Shown: positions 11,369-40,338 of the stretch, one piece after another
How positions within the stretch are numbered: position 1 is the stretch's first letter
Layout: every line of letters begins with the position of its first letter
NCBI GenBank assembly: GCA_019113175.1
Contig: DXHY01000004.1
Coordinates: 1-40,712, forward strand
DNA length: 40,712 nt
Origin: Candidatus Eisenbergiella stercoravium
GTDB lineage: Bacteria; Bacillota; Clostridia; Lachnospirales; Lachnospiraceae
Reading direction: 5' to 3'
The notes under the pieces: generated by a model
What the model saw: the letters and a program-made list of their open reading frames with translations, nothing else
What the model was told of the DNA's origin: nothing
The model's database searches: none
Translations under genes and position numbers: made by a program

Positions 11369-11779
11369 ATGGACAAAGAGACAAAAGACATGTTCAATCT
11401 GATTCTCCAGAAGCTTGATGGCATGGATAAAAGATTCGATGCCATGGATGTGCGGCTTGACGGCATGGATAAAAGATTCGACGCCATGGATGCGCGGCTC
11501 GACGGCATGGATAAAAGATTTGATGCCATGGATGAGAGGCTCGACATCATGGATGAGAAAATTGATGCCATGAATACGGAGCTGCGTTATGTCAGAGTCA
11601 GGCTGGAGAACGAAATTGCAGAAAACATCAAGCGTGTCGCCGAAGGACATATGGATTTGTCCAGAAATCTTCATGAAGCCATGAAACCCCAGACGGAAAT
11701 TGAAATGCTGGTAATCAGGGTGAACAGCCTTGAAACCAAAGTCAGAGACCTTCAGCATAAGGTTTCAATCATTTCCTGA
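11369..11779 (+). CDS. Small coiled-coil protein with 14-residue repeats
   Basis: A 136-residue hydrophilic protein without a signal peptide or membrane segment. Residues about 15-72 are built from 14-residue repeats of the form DGMDKRFDAMDxRL, three near-perfect and a fourth degenerate. Met, Phe/Ile and Leu fall in a heptad-like a/d pattern, so a parallel coiled coil is expected, and a second coiled coil follows at LVIRVNSLETKVRDLQHKV. Many clostridial genomes encode such repeat proteins, mostly annotated as hypothetical; I assign no function. AAAGGATAT precedes the ATG. It is monocistronic, bounded by its own promoter and terminator. Confidence 0.8.
   Translation: MDKETKDMFNLILQKLDGMDKRFDAMDVRLDGMDKRFDAMDARLDGMDKRFDAMDERLDIMDEKIDAMNTELRYVRVRLENEIAENIKRVAEGHMDLSRNLHEAMKPQTEIEMLVIRVNSLETKVRDLQHKVSIIS
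11417..11584 (+). repeat. 42-bp tandem repeats inside the coiled-coil gene
   Basis: Three copies of a 42-base unit (11417-11458, 11459-11500, 11501-11542) differ at only a few, mostly silent, positions. A fourth diverged copy spans 11543-11584. Each unit encodes 14 residues, so copy-number change would keep the reading frame. Confidence 0.9.
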
Positions 11780-16400: not shown

Positions 16401-16439
16401 TCCTCCATCAACAGAAAACAGACCGAAACTTGAAGACGC

Positions 16440-16500
16440 GGAAAACGGTGTTCCGTATTCCTGCTGCTGAAAATGCGGCCCATGGCCGCAGGAAAAGAGG
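16440..16500 (+). repeat. Two-hairpin module (H2-H3-RBS) before trxA
   Basis: H2 is GGAAAACGG-TGTT-CCGTATTCC (16440-16461, one A-A mismatch). H3 is TGCGGCC-CAT-GGCCGCA (16474-16490) and is followed at once by GGAAAAGAGG, the trxA ribosome site. H3 and its ribosome site closely match those of the lysR modules at 20116-20299. Confidence 0.6.
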
Positions 16501-17119: not shown

Positions 17120-17130
17120 AGAGAAATATA

Positions 17131-17244
17131 CCGCCGAAGGCGGCAATAATGGAGGGCGGCACGATCCGCCGGATCGTGCCAAAGAATGGCTTACACCATT
17201 CTTTTATGATTTTCAGATGCCGCCGAAGGCGGCAATAATGGAGG
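17131..17244 (+). repeat. Hairpin modules before the CoA-disulfide reductase gene
   Basis: The 130-base gap contains, in order: H3 CCGCC-GAA-GGCGG with GGAGG (17131-17155); H1 GGCACGATCCG-C-CGGATCGTGCC (17158-17180); H2 AAAGAATGG-CTTACA-CCATTCTTT (17181-17204); and H3 GCCGCC-GAA-GGCGGC with GGAGG (17219-17244). The 25-base stretch from CCGCC to GGAGG is an exact direct repeat (17131-17155 and 17220-17244). Only the second copy is followed by a start codon. Confidence 0.85.
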
Positions 17245-17249
17245 TAGAA

Positions 17250-19025
17250 ATGAAGGTAATTATCATCGGCGGAGTGGCGGGAGGTGCCTCCGCGGCGGCC
17301 CGTCTGCGCCGTCTGGACGAAAACGCGGAAATCATCCTGCTGGAAAGGAGCGGCTACATTTCCTATGCAAACTGCGGCCTGCCCTACTATATCGGCGGCG
17401 TGATCAGAGAAAAGAGCGCGCTTTCGGTGCAGACGCCGGAAAGCTTCGGAGGGCGCTTCCGTGTTGATGTGCGGGTAAAAAACGAAGCGGTTTCCATCGA
17501 TCCGAAGGAGAAAACCGTACGGGTCCGGAATCTGGAAACAGGGGAAGAATATACGGAAAGCTATGATAAGCTGCTTCTTTCTCCCGGCGCAAAGGCGATC
17601 CGTCCGGGACTTCCCGGAATGGACGATAAGCGGATCATGACCCTGCGGACGGTGGAGGATACCCTTGCGATCCGGGATTATCTGGAAGAAAAGAAGCCGA
17701 AGCGCGCGGTTGTGGTTGGTGGAGGTTTCATCGGGCTGGAGACCGCGGAGAATCTGATGGGAGAAGGGCTCGAAGTATCCCTGATCCAGATGGAGGACCA
17801 GGTACTGCCTCCGCTGGACTACGACATGGCCTGTCAGGTGCATTCCTTCCTGAGAGGAAAGGGGCTGGATCTGCGCCTGAACCGGACTGTGACGGGCTTC
17901 ATCCCAAAAGAGGATGGTCTTGTGGTATGGATGAAGAGGACGGAAGGACAGCCGGGCAGCCAGTCCGGACAGATGAATCAGTCCGGTCAGCCGGGAACAT
18001 CAGAGCAGACAAAGGCGGAAGAAGAAAGCATCCGGGCCGATTTTGTCCTGATGGCGGCAGGTGTCCTTCCGGAGATGGGCCTTGCAAGGGAGGCAGGCCT
18101 TGCACTGGGGCAGAAGGGTGCCATTGTGGTCGATGAGCATATGCGGACTTCTGTCCCGGACATCTATGCGGTGGGAGATGCGGTGGAAATCCGGCATTTC
18201 ATCACCGGAAAGAAGACGCTGGTGGCGCTGGCAGGGCCTGCCAACCGGCAGGGACGCATCGCGGCGGACAACATCTGCGGACGGGACAGCGTTTATCAGG
18301 GAGCACAGGGCTCTTCCATCATCAGGCTGTTCGAGATGACCGCGGCCTCCACAGGAATCAATGAAAAGCAGGCAAAGGCGATGGGACTGGACTACGATAA
18401 GGTGATCACCTTTTCCGCAAACCATGCCACCTATTATCCCGGAGCGGAGAATCTGACGATCAAAACCCTGTTTGAGTGTTCTACGGGAAAGCTGCTCGGC
18501 GCGCAGATCGTAGGCTTTGACGGTGTGGATAAACGGATCGATGTTCTTGCCTGTGCCATGCGTGCGGGAATGACGGGAGAGGAGCTTGCGGATATGGATC
18601 TGGCTTATGCGCCGCCCTATTCTTCAGCAAAGGATCCGGTGAATATGGCAGGCTATGTGATCGGAAACGTGCGAAGCGGTCTGGTAGAGCAGTATTACTG
18701 GGATGAGGCGGACGGCCTTTCAGACAGGAAGGATGTGATCCTTCTGGACGTCCGCACAGAAGGGGAATATCAGAACGGACATATCCCGGGCACCGTCAAC
18801 ATTCCGCTGGATGAGCTGAGAAATCGTCTTTCGGAACTGGACCGGGGAAAAATCCTGTACGTCAACTGCCAGAGCGGTCTGAGAAGCTACCTGGCCTGCA
18901 GGATTCTTTCTCAGAACGGCTTCTCCTGCAAAAATCTGGCTGGAGGCTACCGCTTCTATGAATATGTAAAAACGGACCGTACTTATGATGCCGCTCCGGC
19001 AGGTCCCTGCGGCGCAAAGCTGTAA
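17250..19025 (+). CDS. CoA-disulfide reductase/rhodanese fusion (FAD/NAD(P)H-dependent)
   Basis: A 591-residue flavoprotein of the CoA-disulfide reductase-rhodanese family, which reduces CoA disulfides, persulfides or polysulfides with NAD(P)H. It contains an FAD-binding site (IIGGVAGGASAAARLRR), a single catalytic cysteine in SYANCGLPYYIGG (Cys42), an NAD-binding site (VVVGGGFIGLETAENL), the FAD motif AVGDAVE, and a C-terminal rhodanese domain with NCQSGLRS (Cys540). An unusual Gln/Ser/Gly-rich insert (about residues 230-255, QSGQMNQSGQPG) interrupts the NAD domain, probably as a surface loop. The in-frame extension from 17043 overlaps the rhodanese gene and a hairpin cluster; ATG 17250 has a good GGAGG site. 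Third gene of the redox operon. Confidence 0.95.
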   Translation: MKVIIIGGVAGGASAAARLRRLDENAEIILLERSGYISYANCGLPYYIGGVIREKSALSVQTPESFGGRFRVDVRVKNEAVSIDPKEKTVRVRNLETGEEYTESYDKLLLSPGAKAIRPGLPGMDDKRIMTLRTVEDTLAIRDYLEEKKPKRAVVVGGGFIGLETAENLMGEGLEVSLIQMEDQVLPPLDYDMACQVHSFLRGKGLDLRLNRTVTGFIPKEDGLVVWMKRTEGQPGSQSGQMNQSGQPGTSEQTKAEEESIRADFVLMAAGVLPEMGLAREAGLALGQKGAIVVDEHMRTSVPDIYAVGDAVEIRHFITGKKTLVALAGPANRQGRIAADNICGRDSVYQGAQGSSIIRLFEMTAASTGINEKQAKAMGLDYDKVITFSANHATYYPGAENLTIKTLFECSTGKLLGAQIVGFDGVDKRIDVLACAMRAGMTGEELADMDLAYAPPYSSAKDPVNMAGYVIGNVRSGLVEQYYWDEADGLSDRKDVILLDVRTEGEYQNGHIPGTVNIPLDELRNRLSELDRGKILYVNCQSGLRSYLACRILSQNGFSCKNLAGGYRFYEYVKTDRTYDAAPAGPCGAKL

Positions 19026-20115: not shown

Positions 20116-20299
20116 CTCCTCTTTCCTGCGGCCGAACGGCCGCTCATTATTGCTATGAAGAATTGCGTCAGCAATTCTTTCAGGGAAACAGCCCTGGCTG
20201 TTTCCCGCTCCTCTTTCCTGCGGCCGAACGGCCGCTTATTATTACTATGAAGAATTGCGTCAGCAATTCTTTCAGGGAAACAGCCCTGGCTGTTTCCCG
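20116..20299 (-). repeat. Two tandem 92-bp hairpin modules in the lysR leader
   Basis: Copy 1 spans 20116-20207 and copy 2 spans 20208-20299; they differ at about two positions. Read on the minus strand each has H1 GGGAAACAGCC-AG-GGCTGTTTCCC, then H2 AAGAATTGC-TGAC-GCAATTCTT, then an AT-rich spacer, then H3 GCGGCC-GTTC-GGCCGC, then AGGAAAGAGGAG. Only the promoter-distal copy is followed by the lysR ATG; the other carries an unused ribosome site. Confidence 0.95.
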
Positions 20300-24209: not shown

Positions 24210-24248
24210 AAAGCCGGCTGCTGGGGATGCCTCAACGCCGGCTTTTTT
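24210..24248 (+). terminator. Second intrinsic terminator after PFOR
   Basis: AAAGCCGGC (24210-24218) pairs with GCCGGCTTT (24237-24245) and runs into six T. Two terminators in series would insulate the highly expressed PFOR from the hydrogenase-like gene. Confidence 0.8.
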
Positions 24249-24372
24249 GTTCAATAGGAAATTTCATTTCCTATTGAACAAAAACCCCCGGTGGATCGCA
24301 CTGCGGCAGAAAGGGAGATGTCGCTTACGCGATCCGCCGCAGGCGGAGAATCCCGCAAGCGGGATTCTTTTT
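24244..24372. repeat. Palindrome cluster between PFOR and the hydrogenase-like gene
   Basis: A 19-bp-arm near-perfect hairpin (24244-24262 with 24266-24284, centre GGAAAT-TTC-ATTTCC) is followed by GGATCGC..GCGATCC, CCGCC-GCA-GGCGG (24334-24346) and AGAATCCCGC-AA-GCGGGATTCT (24347-24368). Read on the minus strand, the last two are an AAAGAA..TTCT hairpin followed by a CCGCC/GGCGG hairpin, i.e. the H2-H3 order of the modules elsewhere, but inverted relative to the downstream gene. The rest of the gap 24373-24552 has short repeats of CACGGGGT and the hydrogenase ribosome site. Confidence 0.7.
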
Positions 24373-36125: not shown

Positions 36126-36131
36126 ACCAAC

Positions 36132-36214
36132 CCCTCCTTCCGCCGCCGTAAGGCGGCACTGAAATAATGGAAGAACGGCATCGCCGTTCTTTGGCATGAA
36201 CCCCGGTTCGTGCC
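36132..36214 (-). repeat. Three-hairpin module (H1-H2-H3-RBS) before the rubredoxin-synthase gene
   Basis: On the minus strand: H1 GGCACGAACC with GGTTCATGCC (36214-36193, one G-U); H2 AAGAACGGC-GAT-GCCGTTCTT (36191-36171); then ATTATTTCAG; H3 GCCGCC-TTAC-GGCGGC (36157-36142); then GGAAGGAGG. Same order and linker motif (ATT..TTCAG) as the module at 17158-17244, with paired substitutions in H1 and H2. Confidence 0.9.
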
Positions 36215-36304
36215 CCTTCCTTGTCTGCCACATATAGCGGCGTTTGGCAGCTTTTTGTCAGTTTCAGTATAACATGGGCCGTCAGGAGGCGCAATGAAAG
36301 AGGA

Positions 36305-40286: not shown

Positions 40287-40338
40287 GCAATAAAAATCCG
40301 CCGGTCCGGGAAAACGCAGACCGGCGGATTTTTATTGC
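40287..40338. terminator. Bidirectional intrinsic terminator
   Basis: A perfect 20-bp stem (40287-40306 with 40319-40338, core AAAAATCCGCCGGTC) with a 12-base loop. The A-run and T-run on either side of the stem allow it to stop both the short gene at 40029 and the activase gene coming from the right. Confidence 0.92.

Follow-up and report, generated by a model that had tools for sequence, protein, structure and literature searches.

Leader units in the window

The window, the whole stretch of 40,712 nucleotides of Candidatus Eisenbergiella stercoravium that was analysed, is contig C63 of a 4.1 Mb assembly in 89 contigs (own genome, G000). The names of its genes were confirmed by family search; for the CoA-disulfide reductase the NCBIfam scores are below the curated cut-off, and the rubredoxin-glutamate synthase call is based on Pfam Glu_synthase and a weak rubredoxin-like match. 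Upstream of several genes lie units composed of three hairpins (H1, H2 and, after a linker, H3) and a Shine-Dalgarno sequence (SD). They are given below with their scores in the covariance model R1, the construction of which is described in the next section.

17128-17155, + strand: partial copy (H3 and SD) upstream of the full unit; matches 17217-17244 at 27 of 28 nt, spacing 89
17157-17244, + strand: full unit H1-H2-linker-H3-SD of the CoA-disulfide reductase gene; R1 88.6 bits; among the 20 copies that built R1
17158-17180, + strand: H1 hairpin GGCACGATCC/GGATCGTGCC of the CoA-disulfide reductase leader, by direct reading
17181-17204, + strand: H2 hairpin AAAGAATGG/CCATTCTTT of the same leader, by direct reading
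17218-17234, + strand: H3 hairpin TGCCGCC/GGCGGCA of the same leader, by direct reading
17239-17244, + strand: SD TGGAGG of the same leader; the ATG at 17250 is 5 nt further on
36131-36215, - strand: full unit of the rubredoxin-glutamate synthase gene (ATG 36125); R1 75.9 bits; among the 20 copies that built R1
20209-20299, - strand: distal (first) lysR leader unit, GGGAAACAGC subtype; R1 44.9 bits, outside the training set; 92-nt tandem repeat
20117-20207, - strand: proximal (second) lysR leader unit, 3 nt before ATG 20113; R1 43.2 bits
5481-5562, - strand: degenerate unit of the MATE gene (ATG 5472), H2-H3-SD clear, H1 poor; R1 38.6 bits, E 1.4e-7
16437-16500, + strand: partial or degenerate unit of trxA (ATG 16506), GCGGCC-type H3 and SD; R1 27.1 bits, E 6.4e-5

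Direct reading bore out the initial annotation in that the CoA-disulfide reductase and rubredoxin-glutamate synthase leaders share H1, H2, linker, H3, SD and ATG, and the arm differences it had pointed out are real (ATCC/GGAT versus AACC/GGTT in H1, AATGG/CCATT versus AACGG/CCGTT in H2). Its assignment of the lysR leader to the same family was supported by R1 (44.9 and 43.2 bits), in which lysR had not been used; this leader is a tandem duplication of a 92-nt unit with copies 98% identical. The H2-H3 forms it had seen at MATE and trxA were also matched by R1 over the window (38.6 and 27.1 bits), as weak or partial members of the family. The lysR tandem duplication, the second H3 and SD at 17128-17155 and the genus-wide range reported below are absent from that annotation.

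Elsewhere in the window, tandem repeats with a 21-nt period were observed at 11371-11580, a stretch overlapped by ORFs on both strands. Long perfect hairpins, perhaps terminators, lie at 24244-24284 and 40287-40338 (19-bp and 20-bp stems).

Family size and position at gene starts

A first pattern of H2 plus GGAGG gave 38 matches, its reversed control 9. Twenty of the 38, picked by eye, were aligned to build R1; the training set includes the CoA-disulfide reductase and rubredoxin-glutamate synthase sites and leaves out lysR, MATE and trxA. On the own genome, R1 returned at least 148 matches at E up to 1 (best 150 of 3538 candidates scored). From 121 matches taken, 71 stretches around those outside the window were searched together with the window, and these 443,644 bases held 143 matches at E up to 0.001. 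After dropping 18 matches that overlapped better ones, 125 non-overlapping units remained in 103 clusters (85 single, 14 double, 4 triple), a density that is not to be scaled up, because the stretches were picked for holding matches.

By a mechanical rule (ATG, GTG or TTG; ORF of at least 60 aa or open at the stretch end), 99 of the 103 clusters end -4 to +10 nt from a same-strand start codon. Discounting L099-2690, inside an array, and L110+2501, at a TTG ORF, 97 clusters lie in sense orientation at a start codon. The remaining six all lead into a gene on read-out: four run through further copies, one reaches a partial copy and, about 30 nt away, a LacI-like gene, and one lies about 130 nt ahead of a LysR-like gene (both genes named by eye). 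Among control positions in the same DNA, 1093 of 20,000 random positions and 187 of 1657 GGAGG motifs precede an ATG ORF, the criterion here (at least 80 aa, within 10 nt) being different from the cluster rule. The initial annotation had proposed repeats that provide genes with a structured 5' leader, ribosome site included, and enrichment at start codons had been set beforehand as a test; the 97 of 103 clusters agree with the proposal and speak against its refutation.

Because R1 itself contains the SD, an H1-only ascertainment was used, in which an exact H1 pattern plus AAAGAA, with no ribosome site, was searched against 84,980 species genomes. It gave 27 matches in 25 stretches (records very near the own genome may be missing), labelled Eisenbergiella (21), Lachnospiraceae bacterium (three) and Mediterraneibacter sp. 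(one). All 27 copies lead into a ribosome site and gene start on read-out. SD and start codon are found 57-64 nt after the motif in 22 of them, compared with 39 of 5000 random positions; the other five comprise the first of two tandem units and four copies with SD and gene start right after the unit. In one of these four, L082, SD and gene start come right after H1. A wider rule (within 340 nt) holds for all 27 copies and also for 1064 of 5000 random positions. H3 is present in 23 of the 27, and an SD-like motif is directly upstream in 22. As a side observation, L075, L076, L080 and L084 are MAG stretches with an exact Eisenbergiella-type H1 that are labelled Mediterraneibacter sp. or Lachnospiraceae bacterium, labels that may be loose.

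The downstream genes are diverse, family search naming among them galE, metK, murE, trxA, MATE, lysR and "oadB" (here, an oxaloacetate decarboxylase/pyruvate carboxylase-type subunit), and no shared function was evident among them by eye.

Hairpin subtypes and base-pair covariation

Units are about 83-92 bp long with the order H1-H2-linker-H3-SD. Each hairpin occurs in several sequence types, e.g. GGCACGAACC, GGAGAAAACC and GGGAAACNGC for H1, AAAGAAYGG, GGAAATTGG and GAAGAATCAC for H2, and GCCGCC, GCGGCC and GCTGCC for H3, all of which stay paired among the copies listed. The 20-copy alignment revealed both-sided change in 9 of 27 pairs, compared with a mean of 3.0 in shuffles, none of 500 being as high; covariation with more copies aligned is thus significant in this set, again against refutation of the initial annotation. 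In a MAFFT alignment of 86 of the 104 full-length units, leaving out 18 poorer or truncated matches, RNAalifold recovered H2 and H3 unaided, with both-sided change in 9 of 13 pairs; H1 was not recovered, because its length varies in this alignment.

For orthologous copies, the last unit was compared at seven loci in 20 pairwise comparisons of 20 sequences, a set that excludes short H1-H3 forms. Arms differed at 64 of 1079 positions and loops and linkers at 103 of 540, making the arms about three times more conserved. Of 46 changed pairs, 15 were kept by both-sided and 13 by one-sided change, and 18 were broken; these comparisons are non-independent, as branches are shared and some loci may be independent insertions. 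At oadB, for instance, GAACC/GGTTC in G000 corresponds to GGACC/GGTCC in G007. Compensatory arm changes, as claimed from the window, are therefore seen among copies as well as within orthologous copies. Selection on base pairing probably keeps the cassette, and RNA, not DNA, appears to be the selected form; the arm constraint could also reflect gene conversion among copies, or hairpins being needed at the DNA level.

Range within the genus

At E up to 0.001, R1 matched 13 of 98 genomes, namely the own genome and all 12 other genus members; under stricter filters, no match at this threshold was found in the 85 other genomes of the family or order. Since the family is present in all 13 genus genomes searched, it is not genome-specific, contrary to the initial annotation, and the H1-H2-H3-ribosome site repeat would seem to belong to one genus, Eisenbergiella. 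Eight high-copy genomes (G000, G004-G010) gave 29-45 R1 matches each, with the best 45 scored, and five low-copy genomes (G001-G003, G011, G012) 1-5 each. The H3-SD pattern was present in 12 of 13 genus genomes versus 2 of 48 others, with one reversed-control match overall.

A fuller R1 search of the five low-copy genomes at E up to 0.01 gave 1-17 matches each, 31 in total. Fourteen were read out: ten are H1-(H2)-H3-SD units with other arm sequences before an ORF, at least two of them without H2; one is at a contig end, and three, from G002, are a different repeat without SD and start. This second hairpin repeat of G002 (CAACATGAATCTTCGATTCATG ... CAAATTG; L277, L280, L282) is a weak R1 match. 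Copies in G012, G003 and G001 precede a 492-codon ORF with a like start, presumably one gene; the H3-SD repeats before it are alike within G012 and within G003 and different between the two.

Junctions at the Shine-Dalgarno sequence

A strict SD-like motif was found at most 8 nt upstream of H1 in 52 of 92 units (those of at least 78 nt among the 96 best ranked) versus 58 of 1840 in the null set, and also in 23 of 47 units without H3 upstream; a looser motif was found in 74 of 113. Where H3 is present on both sides, the upstream and downstream loops are identical in 32 of 48 (2000 shuffles gave 4.2 on average and 11 at most). These SD relics and matching H3 loops are read as units arriving beside SDs and then duplicating locally.

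Between relatives, the right edge is mostly at the native SD, and in loci with a clean empty site the right junction lies at the SD. AGGAGG is duplicated around the unit at oadB (empty in G010) and metK (unit in G006, empty in G005); the unit itself likewise ends in GGAGG. The lysR leaders differ in the spacer beside the ATG as well, which means that a right edge exactly at the SD is not universal.

Gain, loss and tandem copies between relatives

Ten loci occupied in G000 were compared with relatives. At the CoA-disulfide reductase gene, 3.5 kb of contig G008:C202 align to the window with 98-99% identity, and the contig has a single H3-SD where the window has H3-SD, H1-H2, H3-SD, i.e. exactly 89 bp less; a 73-nt R1 match at this site (23.4 bits) is the lone H3-SD by inspection. 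G006 (85%) holds a unit with the same core, its two H3-SD repeats being more alike than those of G000, and the absence in G008 is therefore best read as loss, not insertion. On the aligned sequences, recombination between H3-SD repeats most likely removed the unit from the G008 contig. Since other G008 stretches seen are about 80% identical, this contig may be contamination from the species of G000. No unit was found in this leader in G004, G007 and G009.

At galE, units are present in G000 and G005 with different left edges, and in G004 and G006-G010 the native SD stands without a unit. In the galE leader of G000 (L087, about 2420-2590), an upstream partial unit was also observed. It starts within the 3' end of the gene before it (guaA by eye), replacing the last guaA codons as seen in G006 and shortening the end of that gene.

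At metK, the leader lacks a unit in G005, G008, G010 and in the outer species. A single unit flanked by duplicated AGGAGG is found in G006, where G005 is empty; G000 and G007 have a partial and a full unit, and G004 has a partial one. The one unit of G000 at oadB corresponds to an empty AGGAGG in G010; full units are present in G000, G004 and G007 and short H1-H3 forms without H2 in G005 and G008, and G006 is interrupted by a contig end. Locus L087-16972 has a unit in G000, G006, G007 and G009, a partial one in G004 and none in G005 and G010. The two lysR units of G000 have no counterpart in the 10 orthologous leaders compared, G006 included. For both murE and L091-6147, a unit is found in G000, G005 and G006 and none in G008 and G010, with rearranged hairpins at murE in G007. 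At the flotillin-like and aldo-keto-reductase-like genes (named by eye; four relatives each), only G000 has a full unit, and some relatives have H1-SD or H3-like forms.

Units thus differ between relatives in presence and tandem number. Insertion rather than loss presumably accounts for most loci. With a presence that changes between close relatives, the family resembles a cassette that is spreading.

Folding and accessibility of the Shine-Dalgarno sequence

Compared with shuffles, folding was strong for the CoA-disulfide reductase leader (z -5.07), one lysR unit (z -4.51) and the rubredoxin-glutamate synthase leader (z -2.61); the MATE leader folds no better than shuffles (z -1.08). When the upstream H3-SD is included in the CoA-disulfide reductase leader, the two H3 copies are predicted to pair together across H1-H2, with the last SD free, so that two folds would compete where H3 is duplicated.

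The SD had a mean unpaired probability of 0.588 in 99 leaders. Without the element the value was 0.527 (p 0.015), and a set of 72 control genes gave 0.486 (p 0.002); versus 0.541 with shuffled upstream sequence, the difference was not significant (p 0.058). This predicted gain in accessibility is modest and fits insulation weakly; insulation would be the benefit of the cassette. A promoter in the linker (TATGAT), suspected by eye, was discarded, since a scan gave generic promoter-like matches only, two of them over the CoA-disulfide reductase leader.

Likeness to known repeat systems

No description of the family was found in the literature, the search covering open-access papers. MIRU, known mainly as a typing marker, occur in sense orientation as units of tens to about 100 bp with tandem polymorphism. 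According to the available part of PMC12548453, they are short, apparently mobile repeats that insert at translation-start sites, namely at the start codon, and contain an ORF that is coupled to the gene downstream. Judged by that part, MIRU is the closest known kind, the likeness being the site at translation starts (here 97 of 103 clusters); the edge is the start codon there and the SD here, and the present unit consists of three hairpins. MIRU-type coupling, i.e. an SD-led ORF ending at the gene start, was seen in only 1 of 99 leaders. The family would be an SD-anchored repeat akin to MIRU, but without MIRU's coupling ORF.

Pneumococcal BOX elements have, to our knowledge, no fixed SD-to-start position. 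In the portion of PMC3049150 available, they are modular hairpin repeats with a variable number of internal modules that can alter downstream expression, and their terminal inverted repeats resemble those of an IS element. On this description BOX is the nearest modular hairpin repeat, differing from the Eisenbergiella family in having terminal inverted repeats. The same portion lists ERIC, Correia and other MITEs as transcribed structured repeats able to alter mRNA fate (PMC3049150). In contrast to MITEs, the Eisenbergiella unit has no terminal inverted repeats, its consensus starting with CGGCACGAACC and ending with GGAGG (by inspection), and the duplicated flank is the SD, or H3-SD, itself; the part of the MITE review PMC10969869 available to us does not mention Shine-Dalgarno sequences or ribosome binding.

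Interpretation of the family

The reading we favour, as reasonably likely on sequence comparison, is a spreading leader cassette of one genus that is anchored at the SD, regenerates it and delivers a predicted insulating 5' leader. A new locus would receive a copy of the unit whose right edge coincides with the SD of the gene there; the SD of the last unit would therefore become the ribosome site of the gene, and the native SD would often persist as a relic 5' of H1. Template switching at the SD would be consistent with a right edge at that site and left edges that vary. Resident units would then duplicate in tandem, with slippage as the apparent copy-number mechanism, and recombination between H3-SD repeats could remove them again, with an H3-SD hairpin left over. 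Once transcribed, each hairpin would fold locally, keeping the SD single-stranded. An insulating translation leader is the probable role of the cassette; that the extra SDs of tandem units perhaps serve as ribosome standby sites is a guess.

A further-reaching version, which we hold only tentatively, is that this RNA-structured ribosome-site cassette is a mobile element targeting the SD, which has rewritten the translation starts of about 100 genes in one genome. Insertion would swap the ribosome site of a gene for the element's own and regenerate the target, and the element would therefore spread through essential genes without breaking them.

It is rather doubtful, though deserving some weight, that the units are neutral or selfish repeats, generated without benefit by template switching at short SD homology and hairpin-driven slippage, and found only at SDs since such a site is harmless, the ribosome site being kept. 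The patchy presence, the truncated upstream copies, the near-identical H3-SD repeats within a locus and the precise loss at the G008 site are all expected from such repeats, as is the lack, by eye, of a shared gene function. Against them stand the roughly threefold conservation of orthologous arms over loops and linkers and the 15 both-sided compensatory changes. Also against them, only 187 of 1657 GGAGG motifs precede a start, yet 27 of 27 H1-only copies are in leaders.

REP repeats consist of a hairpin directly 3' of a GGAG/GTAG motif and occur in many dispersed copies. The present family shares with REP/RAYT the hairpin beside a GGAG-like tetranucleotide, the hairpin directly 3' of GGAGG resembling REP anatomy (SD-like motif by H1 in 52 of 92 units); its copies adjoin a short fixed motif, with H3 near the other end. 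It is nevertheless very improbable that the family is of REP or IS200/IS605 type and owes its movement to a Y1 (HUH) transposase recognising GGAG beside a hairpin. Y1 proteins are encoded in three high-copy genomes (G008, G009, G010), but Y1_Tnp (PF01797) was not found in the own genome G000 and G004-G007, which make up five of the eight with high copy number, or in G002 and G011, single absences not being firm because the assemblies without a match are 81-97% complete. It is also present in low-copy G001, G003 and G012, which brings the total to 6 of 13 genus genomes, and does not follow the element. REP/RAYT differ, moreover, in that the copies here are sense-oriented leaders and that no Y1 protein was found in 7 of the 13 genus genomes, the own included.

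A cis-regulatory riboswitch or attenuator family, for which the structured 5' leader, the covariation and the terminator-like score of H2 at the CoA-disulfide reductase site would speak, is likewise highly unlikely. Rfam 15 gave 0 matches at gathering score in the window, and at that site only weak matches far under this score. All three helices are replaceable in sequence between subfamilies, H2 can be absent, the downstream genes are varied, and presence is not conserved per gene. No conserved unpaired core, as in a ligand switch, is visible in any subfamily. Attenuation by H2, suggested in the initial annotation, did not hold up: the T-rich tail is not kept across subfamilies, a U-tract following H2 in some AAAGAA-type copies and not in GGAAATTGG or GAAGAATCAC types (by inspection), and H2 is missing in several copies and in two orthologous oadB leaders. 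At metK, the unit lies downstream of an apparent SAM-I riboswitch terminator, recognised by eye.

Least probable of all, barely worth entertaining, is copying of units via RNA or single-stranded cDNA by a reverse transcriptase, e.g. the Ec107-like retron of the genus (retron background in the available part of PMC6868368). Copies anchored at the 3' side and truncated at the 5' side are the expected residue of reverse copying, and the Ec107-like retron reverse transcriptase is present in 7 of 8 high-copy genomes (one aligned sequence in six, two in G009), with no match in the G008 stretch searched. It is also present, however, in low-copy G001, G003 and G012, and G011 has units without any RVT_1 match; in the stretches around the retron, R1 found no element-like match, only ordinary leader units. 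The retron was rejected as mover, its distribution not following copy number and no sign of a link being seen, and a phage or plasmid origin was dropped as well, with no match for the patterns and stretch searched.

The retron reverse transcriptase of the own genome is encoded at L108:4872-5909 (G000:C88) on the - strand (PADLOC E 1.3e-128), with YCDD, NAAPH and VTG motifs recognised by eye. Relatives of it, 55-79% identical, were aligned in 10 of 13 genus genomes, and the upstream non-coding region is conserved in several of them.

If the preferred reading of a spreading, SD-regenerating leader cassette is true, Eisenbergiella would be a natural case in which a single structured leader is still replacing the native ribosome sites of many unrelated genes, housekeeping ones included, through a mobile repeat that has the SD as its landing site and rebuilds it. 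The number of units varies between close genomes and could serve strain typing. Relatives with an occupied and an empty site at the same gene are ready-made experiments on how leader hairpins set translation.
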